Assembly (NCBI RefSeq): GCF_002305895.1
Contig: NZ_CP022203.1
Coordinates: 1,280,501-1,344,500 of the forward strand
From: Corallococcus macrosporus DSM 14697
GTDB lineage: Bacteria; Myxococcota; Myxococcia; Myxococcales; Myxococcaceae
Length of the DNA stretch: 64,000 nucleotides
Direction: 5' to 3'
The notes beneath the pieces are model-generated. The model made no database searches. It was not told where the DNA came from and worked only from the letters and a program-made list of their open reading frames with translations. Below are positions 2,476 to 12,342 of this stretch, piece after piece; position 1 is the first letter of the stretch; each line of letters opens with the position of its first letter. A program made the position numbers and the translations under genes.

Positions 2476-3560
2476 TGCCCGACGGGCACGCCGCGCCAGG
2501 CACCCGTGAGCAGACGTTGACGCCCGGGGGCGCGAGCGCGTTCCTGGCCTTGCTGCGCGCGTGGCCGGACGCACCCGCGGGCGCGGCGCCGGAGGGCGTG
2601 GACGCGGAGGCGCTGGTGCGCACGGCGGTGCGCCACGGGCTGGTGGGCTTCGTGACGCACGCGGTGAAACGGGCGGGTTGGGCCCTGCCCGAGCCCGCGC
2701 GCGCGTCCCTTCGCCGGGAGGCCCTGGGGAACGCGGCGCGGGCGCTGCGCGTGAAGACGCTGCTGCTGCGCTGCCTGGACGCGCTGGCGACGGTGGGGCA
2801 GGTGCCGGTGCTGCTCAAGGGGTACGGGCTGGCGCTGCGGCTGTACCCGGACCCGTTGCAGCGAGCCACCACGGACGTGGACCTGCTGGTGGCGCGCGCG
2901 GACGTGGGCGCCGCGGTCCAGGCGCTTGCCCTCGTGGGGCTCTCGGTGCGGCGGGACGACGGCGCCCGGCACGGGGAGGAGGACGCCCACCACCTGGAGC
3001 TGACGGGCCCCGCGGGGCTGGTGGAGCTGCACTACCGCGCGCTCGCGGGGTGGGGCGAGGCGCTGGAGGGGGACGCGCTGCTGGCGCGGGCGGAGGCGGG
3101 CGCGGTGGAGGGCCGGGCCGTGCGGTGGCTGCGGCCCGAGGACGAGGCCGTCTATCTATCGCTGCATGCGAGCAACCACGCGTTGCAGCGGCTGGCGTGG
3201 CTCTTCGATTTGAAGCTGCTGGCGCTGGCGGGGCCACTGGACTGGCGGGCGGTGGTGGAGCGGGCGCGCGGCACGGCCTTCCCCCACGCGGCTTGGTACG
3301 CGTGGGACGCGGCGCGGCGGCTGCTGGGGGCCCCGGTGCCGGAGGCGGTGCTGGCTGCGCTGGCGCCGCCGCGCTGGCAGCAGGTGCTGGCGCGGCGCTT
3401 CTTCTCCGCCGAGCGACTGGTTGGAGCGGCGCTGTTGGACAGCCGGTCGGCGTGGATGGCGGTGAAGGTGCTGCTGGCGCCCCGGATGGATTCCGTGGCG
3501 CGGTATGGCCTGCGCCGGGTTCGCAATGCCGTGCGCGCCAGGCTCCGCGGTCCGGGCTGA
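2472..3560 (+). CDS. Nucleotidyltransferase family protein (NTP_transf_5 type)
   Basis: A 362-residue cytoplasmic protein of the nucleotidyltransferase group that is frequent in myxobacterial and cyanobacterial polysaccharide loci. The core reads VLLKGYGLALRLYP followed by TTDVDLLV, with the DxD metal motif at about residues 135-137. A conserved HYRAL region follows and then a helical C-terminal half. It overlaps the upstream glycosylphosphotransferase by four bases, so the two are translationally coupled. The true substrate is unknown for the family. The last 117 codons are duplicated at 4628-4978, see that entry. A more distant relative that lacks the DxD lies at 15354. Confidence 0.82.
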   Translation: MMPDGHAAPGTREQTLTPGGASAFLALLRAWPDAPAGAAPEGVDAEALVRTAVRHGLVGFVTHAVKRAGWALPEPARASLRREALGNAARALRVKTLLLRCLDALATVGQVPVLLKGYGLALRLYPDPLQRATTDVDLLVARADVGAAVQALALVGLSVRRDDGARHGEEDAHHLELTGPAGLVELHYRALAGWGEALEGDALLARAEAGAVEGRAVRWLRPEDEAVYLSLHASNHALQRLAWLFDLKLLALAGPLDWRAVVERARGTAFPHAAWYAWDAARRLLGAPVPEAVLAALAPPRWQQVLARRFFSAERLVGAALLDSRSAWMAVKVLLAPRMDSVARYGLRRVRNAVRARLRGPG

Positions 3561-3629
3561 GCCGTGTCCGCTTCTCAAGGGCCCGTAGCGGCGGAGCGTG
3601 ATTCCGAGCGGGCACGGCGCACGGAGTTG
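3206..3629. repeat. Direct repeat R1, copy a (3' end of the nucleotidyltransferase gene and its downstream flank)
   Basis: Matches 4624-5047 at a constant offset of 1418 bases with only scattered substitutions and no indel visible. It covers the last 117 codons of the intact gene plus 69 bases beyond the stop. Similarity ends abruptly after acggagttg in both copies. It forms the left border of the first lipoprotein/DUSAM unit. Confidence 0.93.
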
Positions 3630-3650
3630 CCGCCGCGCCCGCTTTGTTCT

Positions 3651-4028
3651 TCATGAGTCGCCGTCGACTGCTCGAAGATAGGTGTTCAGGATGTTCATGT
3701 AGTGGGGCACCACTTCGACTGCGAGGGCATCCTGGAGAAGTTGGCGGGCGCCATCTGTGTCCCCGGCATCGCGACGGCGGTCCACTTCAACCAACGTGCG
3801 GGACAGGCGGCGCGAACCATTGGTGATGCGGGACGCAATCTCCCTGACGAGGGAGGCGGCGCTTTCGTCGTCCTGGAGCGCTCGTGCCGTCTCACCTTGT
3901 GGAATCCCTACGTCGTGCGCGGTGGCCTCGATAAGTGCGCGCGTCTCGGGGGTGAGGAAGGGCTGAACCGGGTCGGTGATGCGGCGGCTCAAGTCTTTGA
4001 CCGCATCCCATTCTCGTTGAGTGGGCAT
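3651..4028 (-). CDS. DUSAM-domain protein, copy 1
   Basis: A 125-residue soluble protein with no signal peptide. The pattern WDAVKDLSRRI..FLTPETRALIEATAHDVGI is the DUSAM fold signature of Myxococcus paralogues, followed by a helical repeat-like C-terminal half ending ALAVEVVPHYMNIL. Function is unknown. It lies 9 bases downstream of a lipoprotein gene in the same direction, so the two are probably cotranscribed. Its counterpart at 5257-5637 sits in the same place but is only distantly similar, sharing mostly the LTx-length spacing, the ARAL segment and LAVEVVPHY. By position it could be the antidote or partner of the lipoprotein, which is inference. Confidence 0.75.
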   Translation of the reverse strand: MPTQREWDAVKDLSRRITDPVQPFLTPETRALIEATAHDVGIPQGETARALQDDESAASLVREIASRITNGSRRLSRTLVEVDRRRDAGDTDGARQLLQDALAVEVVPHYMNILNTYLRAVDGDS

Positions 4029-4037
4029 GGAGTTCTC

Positions 4038-4460
4038 CTAGCGAGGGTGACAGTCCCGGAAGGGCCACTCGTGCTGTCCCTCGCAGTAGCGAAAGCATGC
4101 GTAGCAGTCCCCAATCCATCGAGGCTTCTTCTGGTCTCGGCACCGGACGTACTGCTCCATGCAGTGCTGCCGCCATCCATCGTCGGCACCGTCGTCCTCC
4201 TCTTCATTCGCCTTGTCTTGCGCGCGCCGCATGGCGGCATCCATGGTCGCGGTGTACGCGGCGGCCTCGCTCGCCGTGAGGCCGCACGCTTCGGGGATGC
4301 CCGGGTTGCGCTGGACGCAGCACGACACGGTGTCAGTGCAGGACGCCAAGGCATAGGCATCGCGGCGGCTGGCGGCGGTGGTGGTGGCACTGCCGGAGCA
4401 CGCCAGCGACAAGGCGACCATGAGGCACAGCAGGCCCGGTGCGATGTGCTTGTGTCCCAT
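4038..4460 (-). CDS. Small cysteine-rich lipoprotein, cassette copy 1
   Basis: A 140-residue predicted lipoprotein: basic N-terminus, hydrophobic stretch, and lipobox LSLAC with the modified Cys at residue 21. Residues 1-64 or so are nearly identical to the lipoprotein at 5641-6069 (the other copy has one extra Thr), then the two diverge. The divergent C-terminal part still keeps a shared motif, WxGxCYACFRxCEGQxxWPxxxC, which suggests one fold built on cysteines. A constant exported N-terminus with a variable C-terminus and a variable downstream partner is the layout of polymorphic lipoprotein toxins such as Sit proteins. No known toxin domain is recognised, so the function is unassigned. Confidence 0.78.
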   Translation of the reverse strand: MGHKHIAPGLLCLMVALSLACSGSATTTAASRRDAYALASCTDTVSCCVQRNPGIPEACGLTASEAAAYTATMDAAMRRAQDKANEEEDDGADDGWRQHCMEQYVRCRDQKKPRWIGDCYACFRYCEGQHEWPFRDCHPR

Positions 4461-4624
4461 GCTGATGCGTCTATCACCGTGGATGGGCCGCAGGCAGGGG
4501 CAAACTCACTTCACGGCATCCAAGTCGCTCATGTCCGGCCGCCGCGCACGAAGCGTCAGCCTCGCGCGGTGTAGACCGCCTCGGGCCGCGGCGCTCGGTT
4601 ACGAGCACAGCCCACTCGCTTCAC
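4272..4624. repeat. Direct repeat R2, copy a (lipoprotein 5' half and upstream region)
   Basis: Nearly identical to 5878-6233. It covers the first 63 or so codons of the lipoprotein and 164 bases upstream of its start, so the promoter of both cassettes is shared. The only indel seen is one extra tgg in the other copy. Identity stops exactly at the junction cactcgcttcac, where the duplicated nucleotidyltransferase tail begins in this copy and unrelated sequence begins in the other. Confidence 0.93.
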
Positions 4625-5047
4625 GATTTGAAGCTGCTGGCGCTGGCGGGGCCCCTGGACTGGCGGGCGGTGGTGGAGCGGGCGCGCGGCACGGCCTTCC
4701 CTCACGCGGCCTGGTACGCGTGGGACGCGGCGCGGCGGCTGCTGGGGGCCCCGGTGCCGGAGTCGGCGCTGGCCGCGCTGGCGCCGCCGCGCTGGCAGCA
4801 GGTGCTGGCGCGGCGCTTCTTCTCGGGTGAGCGGTTGGTTGGCGCGGCGCTGTTGGACAGCCGGCTGGCGTGGATGGCGGCGAAGGTGCTGCTGGCGCCC
4901 CGGATGGATTCCGTGGCGCGGTATGGCCTGCGCCGGGTTCGCAATGCCGTGCGCGCCAGGCTCCGCGGCCCGGGCTGAGCCGTGTCCGTTTCTCAAGGGC
5001 CCGTAGCGGCGGAGCGTGATTCCGAGCGGGCACGGCGCACGGAGTTG
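4624..5047. repeat. Direct repeat R1, copy b
   Basis: Second copy of 3206-3629, starting at the junction with repeat R2a. It contains the orphan nucleotidyltransferase tail. After its right border comes unique sequence of about 200 bases not present in the first unit. Confidence 0.93.
4628..4978 (+). pseudogene. Duplicated 3' fragment of the nucleotidyltransferase gene
   Basis: The frame matches the last 117 residues of the 2472-3560 gene with only about six amino-acid differences (for example EAVLAAL against ESALAAL and SAERL against SGERL). It has no DxD region, no start of its own and no recognisable ribosome binding site. I read it as a non-functional by-product of tandem duplication of the adjacent cassette. 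The low divergence means the duplication, or a later gene conversion, is recent. Confidence 0.88.
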
Positions 5048-5256
5048 AACCGGAACGTGGAGGTGCCCGCGCTCCAGGAGGGCGGGCATCGGCCTGCGTG
5101 GCGCTGGGGCCGCGAGCGCATCAGGCGGCAGCAGTGGCACGGTGGCGCCCGATGGCTGCCGGGGCGGAATGGCGCGCTGCGCATCCGCAATAAGCTGCTC
5201 GCGCATCCACTCAATGCGTCGGCAGGGGTACGGCGGTAGTCGCGTCCCCGTTGTCG
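5048..5256. other. Unique spacer in the second cassette unit
   Basis: About 200 bases between the end of repeat R1b and the DUSAM gene, absent from unit 1. The minus strand has an open frame (YPCRRIEWMREQLIADAQ onward) with coding-like composition and an in-frame ATG at 5206, but no good ribosome binding site and no family I recognise. It may be the remnant of the C-terminus of a lost gene. Confidence 0.4.
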
Positions 5257-5637
5257 TCAGGGCTCGTCATCGAGGCCCTTGAGCTGGCTTTCGGCTATCT
5301 TTCGGTAGTGCGGCACCACTTCGACGGCGAGCACATTCCGCATTTCCTGGCGGGCGCTGTCGAAGTCTCCGGCCAGCCGGTAGCGCTTCGCCCGATAAAG
5401 AGCGTCCATGAGCCTGTCTGAGCCCTCGCCAATCCGCCGCGAGGACTCGCTCAAGAGGTCCAAGGCGCCCGCCTCTGTCGCGAGAGCGCGCGCAGCATCG
5501 GCGCCACCGATGCCTACTTCGGTAGCGGTGCGTGCCAGGAGTGCTTTCACGTCATCGGTCAGCGTCAGCGGCTCTCCGTTGTGGAGCACGCGCCGCGCGA
5601 GCGCGCGAATGGGGTCCCAGTCGAGTTCGTCGCTCAT
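5257..5637 (-). CDS. DUSAM-domain protein, copy 2
   Basis: A 126-residue soluble protein and a clearer DUSAM member than copy 1: MSDELDWDPIRALARRVL, then LTDDVKALLARTATEVGI, then a helical segment ending VLAVEVVPHYRKI. The start is three bases after the stop of the lipoprotein gene upstream, which points to translational coupling. It shares position and general length with the gene at 3651-4028 but little sequence, although the DNA on both sides of the two units is nearly identical. Function unknown. Candidate partner or immunity protein for the lipoprotein, by position only. Confidence 0.82.
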   Translation of the reverse strand: MSDELDWDPIRALARRVLHNGEPLTLTDDVKALLARTATEVGIGGADAARALATEAGALDLLSESSRRIGEGSDRLMDALYRAKRYRLAGDFDSARQEMRNVLAVEVVPHYRKIAESQLKGLDDEP

Positions 5638-5640
5638 GAG

Positions 5641-6069
5641 TTACTTGTCCTTCGGATAGCACTTGTCGGCGGGCCATCGTTGCTGGCCCTCGCACTCGCG
5701 GAAACAGGCGTAGCAGCGCCCCTGCCAGCCGTCTTCTTTGCAGTCGCCATAAGCGCGGATGCAGCGACGCTTCCATTCGGGCAGTGCCGCGTTGTGGGAA
5801 TCGTCCCATTCGGCGAGTGCGTCGTCGGCTGCCTCCACGGCCATCTTGACGCCTGCCATGTGCGAGGCGGCTTCGGCCGCCGTGAGGCCGCACGCTTCGG
5901 GGATGCCCGGGTTGCGCTGGACGCAGCACGACACGGTGTCAGTGCAGGACGCCAAGGCATAGGCATCGCGGCGGCTGGCGGCGGTGGTGGTGGTGGCACT
6001 GCCCGAGCACGCCAGCGACAAGGCGACCATGAGGCACAGCAGGCCCGGTGCGATGTGCTTGTGTCCCAT
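5641..6069 (-). CDS. Small cysteine-rich lipoprotein, cassette copy 2
   Basis: A 142-residue predicted lipoprotein with lipobox Cys at residue 21. Residues 1-64 or so match the copy at 4038-4460 almost exactly (one added Thr in the Thr run). Beyond that the sequence differs, with an acidic helical region around KMAVEAADDALAEWDD and then WQGRCYACFRECEGQQRWPADKC, which keeps the cysteine pattern of copy 1. It is likely anchored in the outer membrane, since there is no Asp at +2 of the mature protein (Ser instead). It is cotranscribed with the DUSAM gene downstream. No known enzymatic domain is seen. Confidence 0.78.
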   Translation of the reverse strand: MGHKHIAPGLLCLMVALSLACSGSATTTTAASRRDAYALASCTDTVSCCVQRNPGIPEACGLTAAEAASHMAGVKMAVEAADDALAEWDDSHNAALPEWKRRCIRAYGDCKEDGWQGRCYACFRECEGQQRWPADKCYPKDK

Positions 6070-6233
6070 GCTGATGCGTCTATCACCGTGGATGGGCCGC
6101 AGGCAGGGGCAAACTCACTTCACGGCATCCAAGTCGCTCATGTCCGGCCGCCGCGCACGAAGCGTCAGCCTCGCGCGGTGTTGACCGCCTCGGGCCGCGG
6201 CGCTCGGTTTCGAGCACAGCCCACTCGCTTCAC
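5878..6233. repeat. Direct repeat R2, copy b
   Basis: Second copy of 4272-4624, with one extra tgg codon in the Thr run of the lipoprotein. It ends at the same cactcgcttcac junction, after which the unique leader of the DUF2381 gene begins. Confidence 0.93.
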
Positions 6234-6287: not shown

Positions 6288-7205
6288 TTGCGTCGATTGG
6301 CTGTCATTCTCATCATCCTGAGGAGCATCGCCGCACCAGCGCAATCCCTCCCCGTCGCGCGCGAACGGCAGGAGCGACGGATGGCGCTGGGCGGAGCTGC
6401 CACGGCGCCGGTGCCCGAGCTGCGAATCGCCGCGGGCCTCGCGACGCTCCTCATCTTCGATGCGCCCCTCGACCGTGGCGCCATGGAGCTGGAGGGCCGC
6501 TCCCGGTTCCGGCTGGTGGACGTGGGCGAGCGAATCCTGGCGTTGGAGCCCCTGGAGGACCTGGGCCGGGGGGAGCGGTTGATGCTCCGGGTCCGCTATG
6601 CGGATGGTGCCTCTCCAGAGCAGGGGGTCTTCGCCCTCGTGACCCATGCGTCGGAGGTGGATGCGCGCGTGGAGGTCTTCCGGCGGCGAGACTCCGTCGA
6701 GGCGCTGCGAGCGGAGCTGGCGGACGTGCGCGCCCAGTTGGCTGCGCGGACACAGGAGCTGCGCGCGCTGCGAGCCCGGGGGGCCGCCAACGGCCCGGTC
6801 GGGCTGGTGATGGCGGGCCTCGTGGATGCGGTCGGCGTGAGAGGACGCAGGTTCAAGCGATTCGCCGTGACGAGCGGCACGTCGGGGCTGGACGTCTACG
6901 ACGGGGCCTCATTCCAGGCCGCCACCTGGACCGTGGTCTCGCTCATTGTGCGGAATCACGGCGCCACACCCTGGGGCGCGGCCACCGCGAGGTTTCGCAG
7001 CGCGGCGAGTGGCGCGCGCATCGATGCGGCCACCGTCCGGATGCCGGAGCCATCGATCGCGCCAGGCGCGAGCGGGCGGGTCTTCATCGAGACGAGGGCG
7101 CTCTCCGCCAGGGACGGGGAGGTGTTCCAACTGGAGGTTGGAGATGGCGCCGAGCGAGAGCGGGTGCTCTCACTCCAAGTGACGCTTGATGCGAGGGTTG
7201 AATGA
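6288..7205 (+). CDS. DUF2381 family protein
   Basis: A 305-residue exported protein of the Myxococcus paralogous DUF2381 family. It has an N-terminal hydrophobic segment (LAVILIILRSIAAPAQS, a likely signal peptide), the family core PELRIAAGLATLLIFDAPLDRGAMEL with a beta-rich region, a short coiled coil around residues 140-170 (ALRAELADVRAQLAARTQEL), and a C-terminal beta domain. The start is a TTG at 6288. The stop overlaps the start of the following kinase gene. In myxobacteria DUF2381 genes regularly sit directly before Ser/Thr kinase genes, so a joint signalling role is likely, but the biochemical function is unknown. Confidence 0.88.
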   Translation: MRRLAVILIILRSIAAPAQSLPVARERQERRMALGGAATAPVPELRIAAGLATLLIFDAPLDRGAMELEGRSRFRLVDVGERILALEPLEDLGRGERLMLRVRYADGASPEQGVFALVTHASEVDARVEVFRRRDSVEALRAELADVRAQLAARTQELRALRARGAANGPVGLVMAGLVDAVGVRGRRFKRFAVTSGTSGLDVYDGASFQAATWTVVSLIVRNHGATPWGAATARFRSAASGARIDAATVRMPEPSIAPGASGRVFIETRALSARDGEVFQLEVGDGAERERVLSLQVTLDARVE

Positions 7206-9016
7206 GGGGCATGTCTCACCCCGCGCTGCTCCAGCCCGGGCAGGTGGTGGACGGATGGCGCGTGGTGCGGATGTTGGGGGCGGGCACCTACGGCGCCGTC
7301 TATCAGGTGGAGAAGGACGGGCGGCACTTCGCGATGAAGCTCGCCATGCACCGCGCCAGCAGCGGGGACGCCGAGCAGGCGGACGCGCGGCTGAAGCGGG
7401 AGCTCGGGTGCCTCGTTCACCTGGAGCACGCCAACATCATCGCGTCCCGCGCGCACGGGCGGTGGCCGGACCTGGTCACGGGCTGGCTCTATGTCGTGCT
7501 GGACCTCGTGGAGGGGTACACCCTGGCCGAGTGGGTCGAGCGCACGCACCCCACGGCGCGAGAGGTGGTTCGCGTCTTCGGCAAGCTCGCAGGAGCCGTG
7601 GACTACATGCACGGCCGGGGCGTCTTCCACCGTGACCTGAAGCTGGGCAACATCATGGTGCGCGCGGCGGACGGCGAGCCGTTCATCCTCGACTTCAGCG
7701 CGGGCGACTACACGAACGCCGAGGACCTCACGGACGCGCCGCTGCCGCCGGGCACCCGGCGCTACCGCTCACCCGAGGCCGCGCGCTTCCTCCGGGAGAA
7801 CGGCGACGACCGCGACGCACGCTATGCCTTCAAGGTGACGGACGACGTCTATGCGCTGGGCGTCTGCCTCTTCGACGTGCTGACCGCTCCCGAGCCCACG
7901 AGCGGCGCGTTCAAGGCGCCCGTCGAGGGACGGCTGATGCCGCCCCCGGCCCGGGAGGTGAATCCCCGGGTGCCCCAGGCCTTGAGCGACACGGCCATGT
8001 GCTTCATCGCCCGCCGGCCCGAGCAGCGGCCTCCGACGGCGGAGGTAATGCGACGCATGCTGGAGTCCTTCGCGGGGGAGGGCGGGCCGGAGTGGACCCT
8101 GCCCCTGCATCCCTCCGTGACGACGCCGCGGCTCGACCCGGCGACGGGGAGCGACGCCGTCCCTGCACCGCGTCAGTCCAGGCGCGTGCGGGCAAGCGTT
8201 GTGGGCGGCGTGCTGCTCTTGATGGGGCTGCTTGGCGCGCTGGCCTACCCTGGGTCCCGCTGGGCGTCCCCCTCCAGCGTCCCGGCAGGTGATGGTTCGC
8301 TGCCCCCTGTCGTCATGGCGGACGCGGGGGCCGTGGCGCGGCTGGCCGTGGCGCCACTGCCGTCCCTGCCCCGTGAGGACGGAGGTGCGCCACCTCTGCC
8401 GCCCGCTCGTTCACCCGCTGGGGTAGCGTTGCCGCCCCAAGCTCCCGTCCAGAAGGAAAGCCCCGCCGTGAAGCGTGCCCCCTCTGTTGCCAACTCGTCC
8501 GCTCCCCCAGCCAAGAAGGTTGTCTCCTCTCGTGCGCGCGGAGCGGAGTTCCTCGCGAAGTGCGCGGCCGCGAGCGCCGCCGTGGCGTTGCAGTTGGGGT
8601 GCCCTGGCAGCGTGCAGATGAGGCCCTCCTCGGGGGAGTGTCCCGCCGACGCGCAGCAGGCCATGCGGGCGCGCGGCTTGAGGACGATGGCCAGCGTCAT
8701 GGTGGAAATCGACGTGAGCCGGAAGCCCGACGGCACCGGCCGGCGAACCTATGGCGATGGCCCCGTCCGCAGTCGCGTCACCGGGGCCACTCGGGGCATG
8801 CCCGAGGAGACGATGCTCTACGGACAGGTGTGGACGGGCGATGGGCGGTTCTTTGCGCGTTACACCCAGGCGGAGTACCCGGATGGGACCATCATCCCCG
8901 TGTGCTTTGTGATTGGCGCCGACGGGTCGGAGGAGGGCTATGAGGGGTCGAAGCCGGGAGCCGTCGTCTTCCAATTCATTCATCCCGCTTACATCGTCTA
9001 TTCGCGCTGGCCCTGA
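7202..9016 (+). CDS. Membrane-anchored Ser/Thr protein kinase
   Basis: A 604-residue Hanks-type kinase. The catalytic domain covers about residues 15-285: glycine loop LGAGTYGAVYQ, Lys in HFAMKLAMH, catalytic HRDLKLGN at about 143-150, and DFSAGD at about 164 where the usual DFG glycine is Ser. A single membrane segment follows near residue 340 (VVGGVLLLMGLLGALAY), then a Pro/Ala-rich linker and a C-terminal domain of about 160 residues outside the cytoplasm ending HPAYIVYSRWP. The start overlaps the DUF2381 stop (ATGA); an in-frame ATG three codons later is also possible. The DFSAGDY form recurs in one myxobacterial kinase group, so loss of activity should not be assumed. Confidence 0.9.
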   Translation: MRGMSHPALLQPGQVVDGWRVVRMLGAGTYGAVYQVEKDGRHFAMKLAMHRASSGDAEQADARLKRELGCLVHLEHANIIASRAHGRWPDLVTGWLYVVLDLVEGYTLAEWVERTHPTAREVVRVFGKLAGAVDYMHGRGVFHRDLKLGNIMVRAADGEPFILDFSAGDYTNAEDLTDAPLPPGTRRYRSPEAARFLRENGDDRDARYAFKVTDDVYALGVCLFDVLTAPEPTSGAFKAPVEGRLMPPPAREVNPRVPQALSDTAMCFIARRPEQRPPTAEVMRRMLESFAGEGGPEWTLPLHPSVTTPRLDPATGSDAVPAPRQSRRVRASVVGGVLLLMGLLGALAYPGSRWASPSSVPAGDGSLPPVVMADAGAVARLAVAPLPSLPREDGGAPPLPPARSPAGVALPPQAPVQKESPAVKRAPSVANSSAPPAKKVVSSRARGAEFLAKCAAASAAVALQLGCPGSVQMRPSSGECPADAQQAMRARGLRTMASVMVEIDVSRKPDGTGRRTYGDGPVRSRVTGATRGMPEETMLYGQVWTGDGRFFARYTQAEYPDGTIIPVCFVIGADGSEEGYEGSKPGAVVFQFIHPAYIVYSRWP

Positions 9017-9021
9017 GCGTG

Positions 9022-9071
9022 TCACTGTCAAAGTGATTTACGTTCTGCCAATGGCCACGGACTGACAGTGA
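9022..9071. repeat. Inverted repeat after the kinase gene
   Basis: Perfect 9-base arms tcactgtca (9022-9030) and tgacagtga (9063-9071) are separated by 32 bases, just after the kinase stop. There is no T-run after the right arm, so a simple intrinsic terminator is doubtful. It could fold in the mRNA or serve as a binding site before the next gene. Confidence 0.5.
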
Positions 9072-9167
9072 AGACTGGCGCGCGGTGCGCGGGACCCGTG
9101 GCGTCATTCACTTCGGAGGGAGGGGGCGTTAGCTTGCCGTCTGTCTTTGCAAGGAGCGCCCCCTTTC

Positions 9168-10421
9168 ATGTCCAACGTTGATGACCTCCGGACCACCGGG
9201 GGAGCGGTCCTCTTTCAGGTGGGGGACACCGCCTACGAGTTCCTCCAGACCCTCGGGACGGGCCGCAATGGCGAGCGGGTGATGCTCGCGCGTCGCCGGA
9301 CCCCCGCTGGGTATCAGGGCAAGGTGGTGTTGAAGTGCGTGGTCCTGCCCGAGCGGAAGTTCGCCGAGGCGTATCCGCGCGCGCGTGCTCGACTGGAAGA
9401 GGAGGCGCGGTTGGCGCAGATGCTCCAGCATCCGAACATCGCCCGCGTCCACGGCCTCTTCGAGATGCGGTACGGGCTGTGCGCCGTCCTGGAGTGCGTG
9501 GAAGGCTTCAGCCTGGATGCGCTGCTCTCCATCGCCCAGGCGCGTGGGCGCTACTTCTCCGAGCCCTTCGTCTTGTACGTGTTCGCGGAGGTGGCGGCGG
9601 CGCTGGCCCACGCGCACTCGCGCACGGATGACGCGGGGGCTCCGCTGGGCATCGTGAACCGGGACATCAACCCTTCAGGCATCCGGCTGCGGCCCGGGGG
9701 CGCCGTCGCGCTGACTGACTTCGGTGTGGCCTTCTCGCGGCTGGCTGGGCGCATCGCCACGTCGTTGCCGCGTCCCAGAGGGGAGGCCCTCTATGCGCCA
9801 CCGGAGGCCTTTCTGGGGGCGCGGGTGGACGCGCGAGGGGACCTGTTCTCGCTCGGCCTGACGATGCTGGAGTTCGCCACCGGGAGGCATCTGTACGACC
9901 CGGCCGACCTCCGAATCCCGGAGGCGGAGCCGCACCTCACGTTGGAGGAGCACCGGCGCGTCCTGGACGCCTCCATCCTGGCCATGGAGACGGGTCTGCC
10001 CTCCTTCATGGAGGATGCCCTCTGGTGTGCCATGGCCTACCGGCCGAGGGACCTCGCCCGCGCAACGGCCGGTGTGTCCCAGCCGTTGCGCGCCATCCTT
10101 CACACGCTGCTTCGCCGCAGGCCGGCGGACCGCTTCGCGTCGGCGGCCGAGCTGGAGTCGGCGCTGCGCGCGCGCCTGGCGGAGCTTGCGCCCTTCGGCC
10201 CGGCCGATGCGGTGAAGGAGGTCCAACAGGCGCTGCTCGAGGCGGGAGAGGCGCTGGAGGAGTTGGACCTGCTGGATGACGAGGGTGGCTTCGTCCCGGC
10301 GGGCTGGCGCGAGCACCCGGACCATGTCGAGACGCACCCCGGAGGCCGAGGCGCGGATGAGGTGACGACAGCTCCAGGGGCGGGTGCGCGTCGGACTGGG
10401 AAGGCGCCGCCGGCCGCCTGA
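9168..10421 (+). CDS. Ser/Thr protein kinase-like protein with altered active site
   Basis: A 417-residue cytoplasmic kinase-fold protein with no membrane segment. The glycine loop region (TLGTGRNGERVML), the Lys in VVLKCVVLP and a normal DFGVAF are present. The catalytic loop reads NRDINPSGI at about residues 164-172: His is Asn, the Lys two after Asp is Asn, and the metal-binding Asn is Gly. Related myxobacterial kinases often have NRD and NP here but keep the Asn, so the Gly is the real anomaly and activity may be reduced or lost. I chose the ATG at 9168 because aaggag lies 11 bases before it; a TTG at 9147 precedes that site. Confidence 0.82.
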   Translation: MSNVDDLRTTGGAVLFQVGDTAYEFLQTLGTGRNGERVMLARRRTPAGYQGKVVLKCVVLPERKFAEAYPRARARLEEEARLAQMLQHPNIARVHGLFEMRYGLCAVLECVEGFSLDALLSIAQARGRYFSEPFVLYVFAEVAAALAHAHSRTDDAGAPLGIVNRDINPSGIRLRPGGAVALTDFGVAFSRLAGRIATSLPRPRGEALYAPPEAFLGARVDARGDLFSLGLTMLEFATGRHLYDPADLRIPEAEPHLTLEEHRRVLDASILAMETGLPSFMEDALWCAMAYRPRDLARATAGVSQPLRAILHTLLRRRPADRFASAAELESALRARLAELAPFGPADAVKEVQQALLEAGEALEELDLLDDEGGFVPAGWREHPDHVETHPGGRGADEVTTAPGAGARRTGKAPPAA

Positions 10422-11907: not shown

Positions 11908-12342
11908 ATGAAAGTCATGGTGCTCGTGAAGGCGACGAAGAACTCCGAGGCCGGCGTGATGCCCAGCGAGAAGGAGTTCGCGGACATGGGCAGGTTCAAC
12001 GAGGAGCTGGTGAAGGCCGGGGTGATGCTCGATGGAGATGGCCTCAAGCCGAGCAGCGCGGGCAAGCGCATCCGGTTCTCGAACGGAACCAGGCGTGTCA
12101 TCGACGGTCCCTTCGCCGAGACGAAGGAGCTCGTGGCCGGCTATTGGATCTGGCAGGTGAAGTCGATGGAGGAGGCGATGGAGTGGGCGCGCCGCTGCCC
12201 GGACCCGATGCCCGGCGAGGAGTCGGACCTGGAGCTCCGCCCCTTCTATGAACTGGAAGACCTCGGCGCCGGCTTCATCCCGGAGCTGCGTGCCCAGGAG
12301 GAGAAGCTGCGCGCCGAGTTGGACCAGCGCCGAGGCTCCTGA
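11908..12342 (+). CDS. YCII-related (DGPF domain) protein
   Basis: A 144-residue soluble protein of the YciI/DGPF family, a ferredoxin-like dimeric fold. It has the signature VIDGPFAETKELVAGYWIWQV and a typical N-terminal strand MKVMVLVKATKNSEAG. In many genomes these genes sit beside ECF sigma factors of the ECF41/42 type, but none is present here, so the gene stands alone and its role is unknown. A ribosome binding site (gaaagga) precedes the ATG. The gene converges on the long lipoprotein gene at 12392, with a shared hairpin between them. Confidence 0.88.
   Translation: MKVMVLVKATKNSEAGVMPSEKEFADMGRFNEELVKAGVMLDGDGLKPSSAGKRIRFSNGTRRVIDGPFAETKELVAGYWIWQVKSMEEAMEWARRCPDPMPGEESDLELRPFYELEDLGAGFIPELRAQEEKLRAELDQRRGS

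Follow-up and report, generated by a model that had tools for sequence, protein, structure and literature searches.

How did two neighbouring gene units come to be almost identical at both ends and so different in their centres? The question is raised by a tandem array in Corallococcus macrosporus DSM 14697, within a 64,000-nucleotide stretch of contig NZ_CP022203.1 (positions 1,280,501 to 1,344,500, here called the window). Behind a nucleotidyltransferase (NT) gene stand two units, each made of a copy of the NT tail, a DUSAM gene, and a lipoprotein gene with its promoter region (Table 1). A previous sequence-only reading of this DNA had described the pattern and argued that simple duplication could not account for it. 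We find that the centre, a module of ~0.63 kb comprising the rear of the lipoprotein gene and the whole DUSAM gene, has very probably been exchanged behind a constant front formed by the promoter and the lipoprotein 5' half.

The pattern itself was confirmed by aligning the two units and following identity along them. The ends are 96-99% identical and the centres are not as similar as these flanks. The NT tail copies T1 and T2 differ at 17 of 423 bases (96% identity), and the lipoprotein 5' half with its promoter is 97% identical. By segment, nucleotide identity is 0.99 in the promoter and 0.97 in the N part of the lipoprotein, then 0.48 in its middle, 0.56 in its C part and 0.54 in DUSAM. It drops sharply at 3628/5046 and rises sharply at ~4253/5859; on the lipoprotein side the switch falls at the codons LTA(S/A)EAA (~4253-4260). 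The DUSAM genes had been called only remotely similar and the lipoprotein 3' halves divergent; at ~50% identity the centres are nevertheless homologous. Both lipoproteins have a Cys-rich C domain, and both DUSAMs are members of TIGR02267 / PF09543 (DUF2379), with 132.8 bits for DUSAM1 and 168 bits for DUSAM2 over the full model (positions 1-123), far above the curated cut-off of 60 bits. The guanine-plus-cytosine (GC) content of the two modules, 63.5% and 65.2%, is below that of the flanks (69-77%).

In the front and in the NT tail the two units have a common ancestry, and in the module their ancestries differ. Among 71 lipoprotein N parts placed in one tree, the window units are sisters (support 99.5). 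Forcing them together cost 105 log-likelihood units in the DUSAM tree (p-AU, from the approximately unbiased test, 1e-52) and 74 units for the lipoprotein middle and C part (p-AU 1.7e-4), these being quick trees on few columns from which one frameshifted unit, that of genome G007, was excluded. Since the sister relation holds for the lipoprotein N part but not for the middle and C part or DUSAM, exchange of the centre is the very probable history. Simple tandem duplication is ruled out by the module trees, as the sequence-only reading had foreseen. In the DUSAM tree, unit 1 groups with G013, G023 and G025, and unit 2 is placed elsewhere. Module 1 is 87% identical to G013:C1:274807-275432, with homology ending at 3635; along this G013 cassette the module is 85-91% identical to unit 1, the front 75%, the promoter 47% and the downstream flank 54%. 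The nearest relative of both fronts lies in the same genome (L079). Because it matches unit 2 along 876 bases, unit 2 probably retains the older combination, and unit 1 would be the one that received its module.

Table 1. Features of the tandem units and their surroundings (positions in the window)
Feature	Position	Strand	Remarks
Unit 1	3206-4623		tandem cassette, first of two
Unit 2	4624-6233		tandem cassette, second of two
NT gene, NTP_transf_5, PF14907	2472..3560	+	body native, tail from ~3206 of foreign ancestry
NT tail copy T1, left flank of unit 1	3206..3628	+	alignment of units
Exchanged module 1: DUSAM1 with middle and C part of lipoprotein 1	3629..4252	-	GC 63.5%; exchange very probable
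DUSAM gene 1, TIGR02267 / PF09543	3651..4028	-	profile match
Lipoprotein gene 1, 140 amino acids, lipobox LSLAC, Cys-rich	4038..4460	-	
Constant front of unit 1: lipoprotein 5' half and promoter region	4253..4623	-	alignment of units
NT tail copy T2, left flank of unit 2	4624..5046	+	gene fragment without its front
Segment of 194 bases, unit 2 only	5047..5240	.	80% match in G021:C208
Module 2: DUSAM2 with middle and C part of lipoprotein 2	5241..5858	-	GC 65.2%
DUSAM gene 2, TIGR02267 / PF09543	5257..5637	-	profile match
Lipoprotein gene 2, 142 amino acids	5641..6069	-	
Constant front of unit 2: lipoprotein 5' half and promoter region	5859..6233	-	alignment of units
Imm52 immunity gene, PF15579, 287 bits	10898-11641	+	same island as window units

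If modules are exchanged, relatives should hold conserved flanks around different centres. This was seen at a second lipoprotein-DUSAM locus, syntenic in seven species (G013, G023, G025, G022, G021, G007 and G012), and not behind NT. There the flanks are common to the species and the modules differ. G023 and G025 hold module type 1. The flanks of G022 are 98.4% and 98.5% identical to those of G025, and between them G022 has ~0.66 kb of a different lipoprotein rear and DUSAM, joined in frame at the lipoprotein codons where the window units also switch. The old C-end (KPRWIGDCYACFRYCEGQREWPFRDCHPR) and the old DUSAM, still intact, lie displaced downstream of this insert. The right-hand join has a short AAGAAG in common. 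Over a stretch that reaches into the start of the following gene by its first bases, the insert is 97.7% identical to the module that G012 has here, so its donor was another allele of the second locus. Exchange with the same lipoprotein join happened independently in other Myxococcus species. Between G013 and G007 the divergence starts from the lipoprotein C part onward (promoter 0.87, N 0.91, middle 0.87, C 0.61, DUSAM 0.59); the apparent decoupling of C part and DUSAM in the G007 unit was set aside since its lipoprotein is frameshifted. Three tandem paralogs of ~200 amino acids without a Pfam match lie between the two units of this locus (L179:6078-7941).

A coupling of lipoprotein rear and DUSAM was found across the genus in 55 dereplicated lipoprotein-DUSAM pairs from Myxococcus. 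DUSAM identity correlated with that of the lipoprotein middle (0.60) and C part (0.61), and less with the N part (0.28) and the signal (0.14). Given the middle and C part, the partial correlation of the N part was 0.06; given the signal and N part, that of the C part was 0.61, where permutations reached at most 0.21. By bootstrap, C exceeded N by 0.33 (0.11 to 0.55). In this set DUSAM similarity follows the C part of the lipoprotein, not the N part. Exchange is occasional, because near-identity of the fronts extends over the whole unit at most of the loci that show it.

The NT gene in front of the array records a further event. Measured against four close relatives, its divergence at third codon positions climbs from 8% to 27%, with the best breakpoint at 3232 (interval 3138-3328), and polymorphism among those relatives is flat across this point. 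The tail of the intact gene, from ~3206, is by this measure of foreign ancestry. Over 3206-3560, the C-terminal third of the chromosomal gene is seen to be replaced by a diverged allele; a search for the donor in 96 genomes of the family gave no match above 84%. At 16 coding sites T1 and T2 carry different bases, and 10 of these changes are synonymous (neutral expectation 0.29-0.34, P 0.006-0.02). Because the differences are mostly synonymous, it seems that T2 belonged to a functioning gene of another strain while it diverged. Decay of the second tail as a dead copy since duplication is disfavoured by this synonymous excess, with modest P. In close relatives the next gene begins within ~0.6 kb of NT, and in the window an island of ~8 kb lies between NT and a YCII gene at 11908. 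Among 13 relatives whose NT region was examined, none has a lipoprotein-DUSAM unit behind NT, and among 27 Myxococcus species the window genome is the only one with the tandem there.

A possible course of events can be put together from these results. Homologous recombination in the common front would have made one side of the exchange, and recombination in the NT tail or short-homology joining the other. One of the units may derive from the allele of a related strain and not from a plain local copy. The matching unit ends need no special site, because any head-to-tail join produces them.

The sequence-only reading had likened the array to toxin-tip exchange in contact-dependent inhibition (CDI) and Rhs loci. 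The recombination logic holds, including the displaced orphan: as in CDI (cdiA-CT/cdiI) and Rhs, the front is constant, the rear is exchanged together with the next gene, and the old rear and next gene are displaced downstream. For CDI and Rhs toxin-immunity modules, orphans of this kind have been described, and duplicating a module before it is exchanged has been put forward as a way to keep immunity (PMC4927057). The lipoprotein and DUSAM proteins have 140 and 125 amino acids, what is swapped are diverged variants of a single family and not different folds, and family searches found no CdiA/CdiB and no Rhs scaffold or repeats in the two-gene units. By analogy, lipoprotein-DUSAM exchange works like that of CDI/Rhs without being a member of either. 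The SitA/SitI lipoprotein toxins of the genus, passed by outer membrane exchange (PMC5562445, PMC8546572) and with modular C parts in some families (PMC8546572), are another point of comparison. In both systems a myxobacterial lipoprotein gene is followed by a partner gene, with many alleles per genome, and in G026 the NT site holds a SitA5-Imm11 pair. Unlike SitA, the window lipoproteins comprise 140-142 amino acids in all and lack the N-terminal escort domain of ~375 amino acids. The SitA models of NCBIfam did not match them, although this library does detect SitA5_escort in G026. Searches of Pfam, NCBIfam and solved structures gave no match to a C-terminal nuclease domain, with unrecognised domains still possible. 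By its size and the missing escort domain, the window lipoprotein is not a SitA toxin. PADLOC gave no match either. Among the papers searched we found none on DUSAM function or exchange, and the sequence-only reading likewise knew of no description of such exchange for these genes; the literature matches to 'DUSAM' were unrelated medical papers.

What, then, might the module be for? We tentatively favour effector-immunity or kin-discrimination cargo, because of the gene order, the many alleles, the coupled exchange, the orphans with intact DUSAM, and the toxin-immunity genes in the same islands. The lipoprotein would be an envelope antagonism or self-identity cargo, and DUSAM its cytoplasmic immunity or specificity partner. 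With two modules in tandem, or with the old DUSAM kept as an orphan, a cell could change type and still tolerate its old kin. Among 123 DUSAM stretches of Myxococcus, 72 are directly preceded by a full lipoprotein, mostly with a gap of 6-16 bases, and upstream of 10 full-length DUSAMs the lipoprotein is truncated or broken. One such orphan sits in the window genome (L080, G000:8250966). As for the islands, G026 has a SitA5 with AHH nuclease and Imm11 between NT and DUF2381, G023 has AHH and Imm11 between lipoprotein-DUSAM units, in G010 a TsiV gene adjoins a lipoprotein behind NT, and the window's own island has Imm52. On a broader scale, lipoprotein-DUSAM pairs may be polymorphic determinants of self-identity or antagonism in myxobacteria that form a separate, hitherto undescribed family, in which a disulfide-rich mini-lipoprotein and a cytoplasmic DUSAM partner would be renewed by module exchange, with orphan DUSAMs kept; we put this forward with the same reserve.

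Several points weigh against this interpretation, or against the exchange on which it builds. The synonymous excess in the NT tails is modest and comes from 16 sites only. The comparison runs between species, and the two single-unit alleles are not seen in it. In 12 comparisons the C parts are at least 75% alike and the DUSAMs below 60%. Many orthologous loci are uniformly similar, and some joins fall between the lipoprotein and DUSAM. The coupling of C part and DUSAM could be mere linkage of neighbours. The lipoproteins match no curated Pfam or NCBIfam family and no toxin family, and toxin or immunity genes are absent from the 25 commonest families of 136 neighbour genes, counted without a control set. 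The uniform loci, the joins, the missing toxin family and the missing toxin neighbourhood suit a neutral account, in which recombination simply occurs in the most conserved DNA of a multi-copy family, the coupling is physical linkage and the proteins have an ordinary envelope function. We consider it doubtful, since the orphans retain DUSAM and lose the lipoprotein front, the modules are low in GC compared with their flanks, and the swaps lie inside islands that also hold toxin-immunity genes.

The proteins themselves speak to a second alternative, a non-toxic recognition or signalling pair, with the Cys-rich lipoprotein as a surface identity tag and DUSAM as a cytoplasmic adaptor specific to it, for instance for its folding, its export or a signal from it, resembling tetratricopeptide repeat (TPR) proteins. 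A signal with lipobox can be read from the lipoprotein sequence, MGHKHIAPGLLCLMVALSLAC. The family has ten invariant cysteines and a conserved C-terminal domain, GxCxxCxxxC..Q..WP...C, which is one and the same in all modules. The cysteines suggest an envelope protein, and DUSAM lacks an export signal. No relative was found when solved structures were searched by sequence; the lipoprotein model had no Foldseek match, and a second structural search gave one chain at Z 2.0. The predicted DUSAM model has six helices with a TPR-like C half (predicted local distance difference test, pLDDT, 95). Its structural matches are TPR-like helical hairpins only, over ~55 residues with Z up to 9.3, such as FimV TPR3. 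Solitary DUSAMs without any lipoprotein also exist, as does a solitary lipoprotein group. These solitary members, the single C domain, and the pairing of an envelope-type protein with a DUSAM that lacks an export signal also count against the effector-immunity reading. We regard such a pair as unlikely: the resemblance to TPRs is weak, at Foldseek E above 1, and of a kind often given by helical hairpins, and the retained orphan DUSAMs are better explained by immunity. The remaining candidate is conversion of the flanks, offered by the sequence-only reading beside exchange, after an old local duplication whose centres diverged in place. It would be expected to leave identical ends beside diverged centres, but it is highly improbable given the conflict between trees, the genus-wide lineages of both module types with closer relatives in other species (for centre 1, 87% identical behind another front), the absence of the tandem behind NT in the 13 relatives examined there, and the mostly synonymous tail differences.

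DUSAM genes are numerous in Myxococcaceae without a known role, and module exchange with orphans offers a concrete hypothesis for them. If the effector-immunity or kin-discrimination reading is true, SitA is joined in myxobacterial kin discrimination by another, independent set of lipoprotein identity genes. Should the pair be harmless, the same recombination logic diversifies envelope proteins that are not toxins.

Several further observations concern the island and the NT site. The TIGR02268/DUF2381 gene and two Ser/Thr kinase genes that follow the units (6288-10421) are also found as a trio downstream of NT in G026, and kinases and DUF2381 recur beside other DUSAM loci. The Imm52 gene has no obvious toxin gene directly upstream and is possibly an orphan immunity gene. 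In G010, a 286-amino-acid lipoprotein without a family stands beside the TsiV-type immunity gene directly behind NT (L073:6242-8016), likely a further effector-immunity pair at this site.

In the window genome, a single contig of 8.97 Mb, 12 DUSAM matches exceed the cut-off, and ~10 near-full lipoproteins of this family are present along with fragments. In the order, DUSAM exceeds the cut-off in 59 of 145 genomes, with up to 27 matches per genome. All DUSAM genomes of the order, among the matches listed, belong to the window's own family; the named matches are from Myxococcus, Corallococcus, Pyxidicoccus, Archangium, Citreicoccus and metagenome-assembled genomes of Myxococcaceae. DUSAM genes without an upstream lipoprotein occur across Myxococcus species (L233, L234, L235, L236, L241, L245, L251, L255, L256, L259 and L260), and in this group the upstream sequences are alike, with a read-through ending in QRKNDS or QRKHAS. 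In G010, a different Cys-rich lipoprotein-like reading frame lies upstream of a DUSAM gene (L249, 1186-1563). The solitary family lipoprotein at L085:1963-2358, without DUSAM, has relatives in at least 8 other Myxococcus genomes, six of which have an in-frame TAG within the profile match. Public records labelled Comamonas sp. KCTC 72670 also hold these Myxococcus loci (L282, L283, L284, L290 and L350), and the label is probably wrong.

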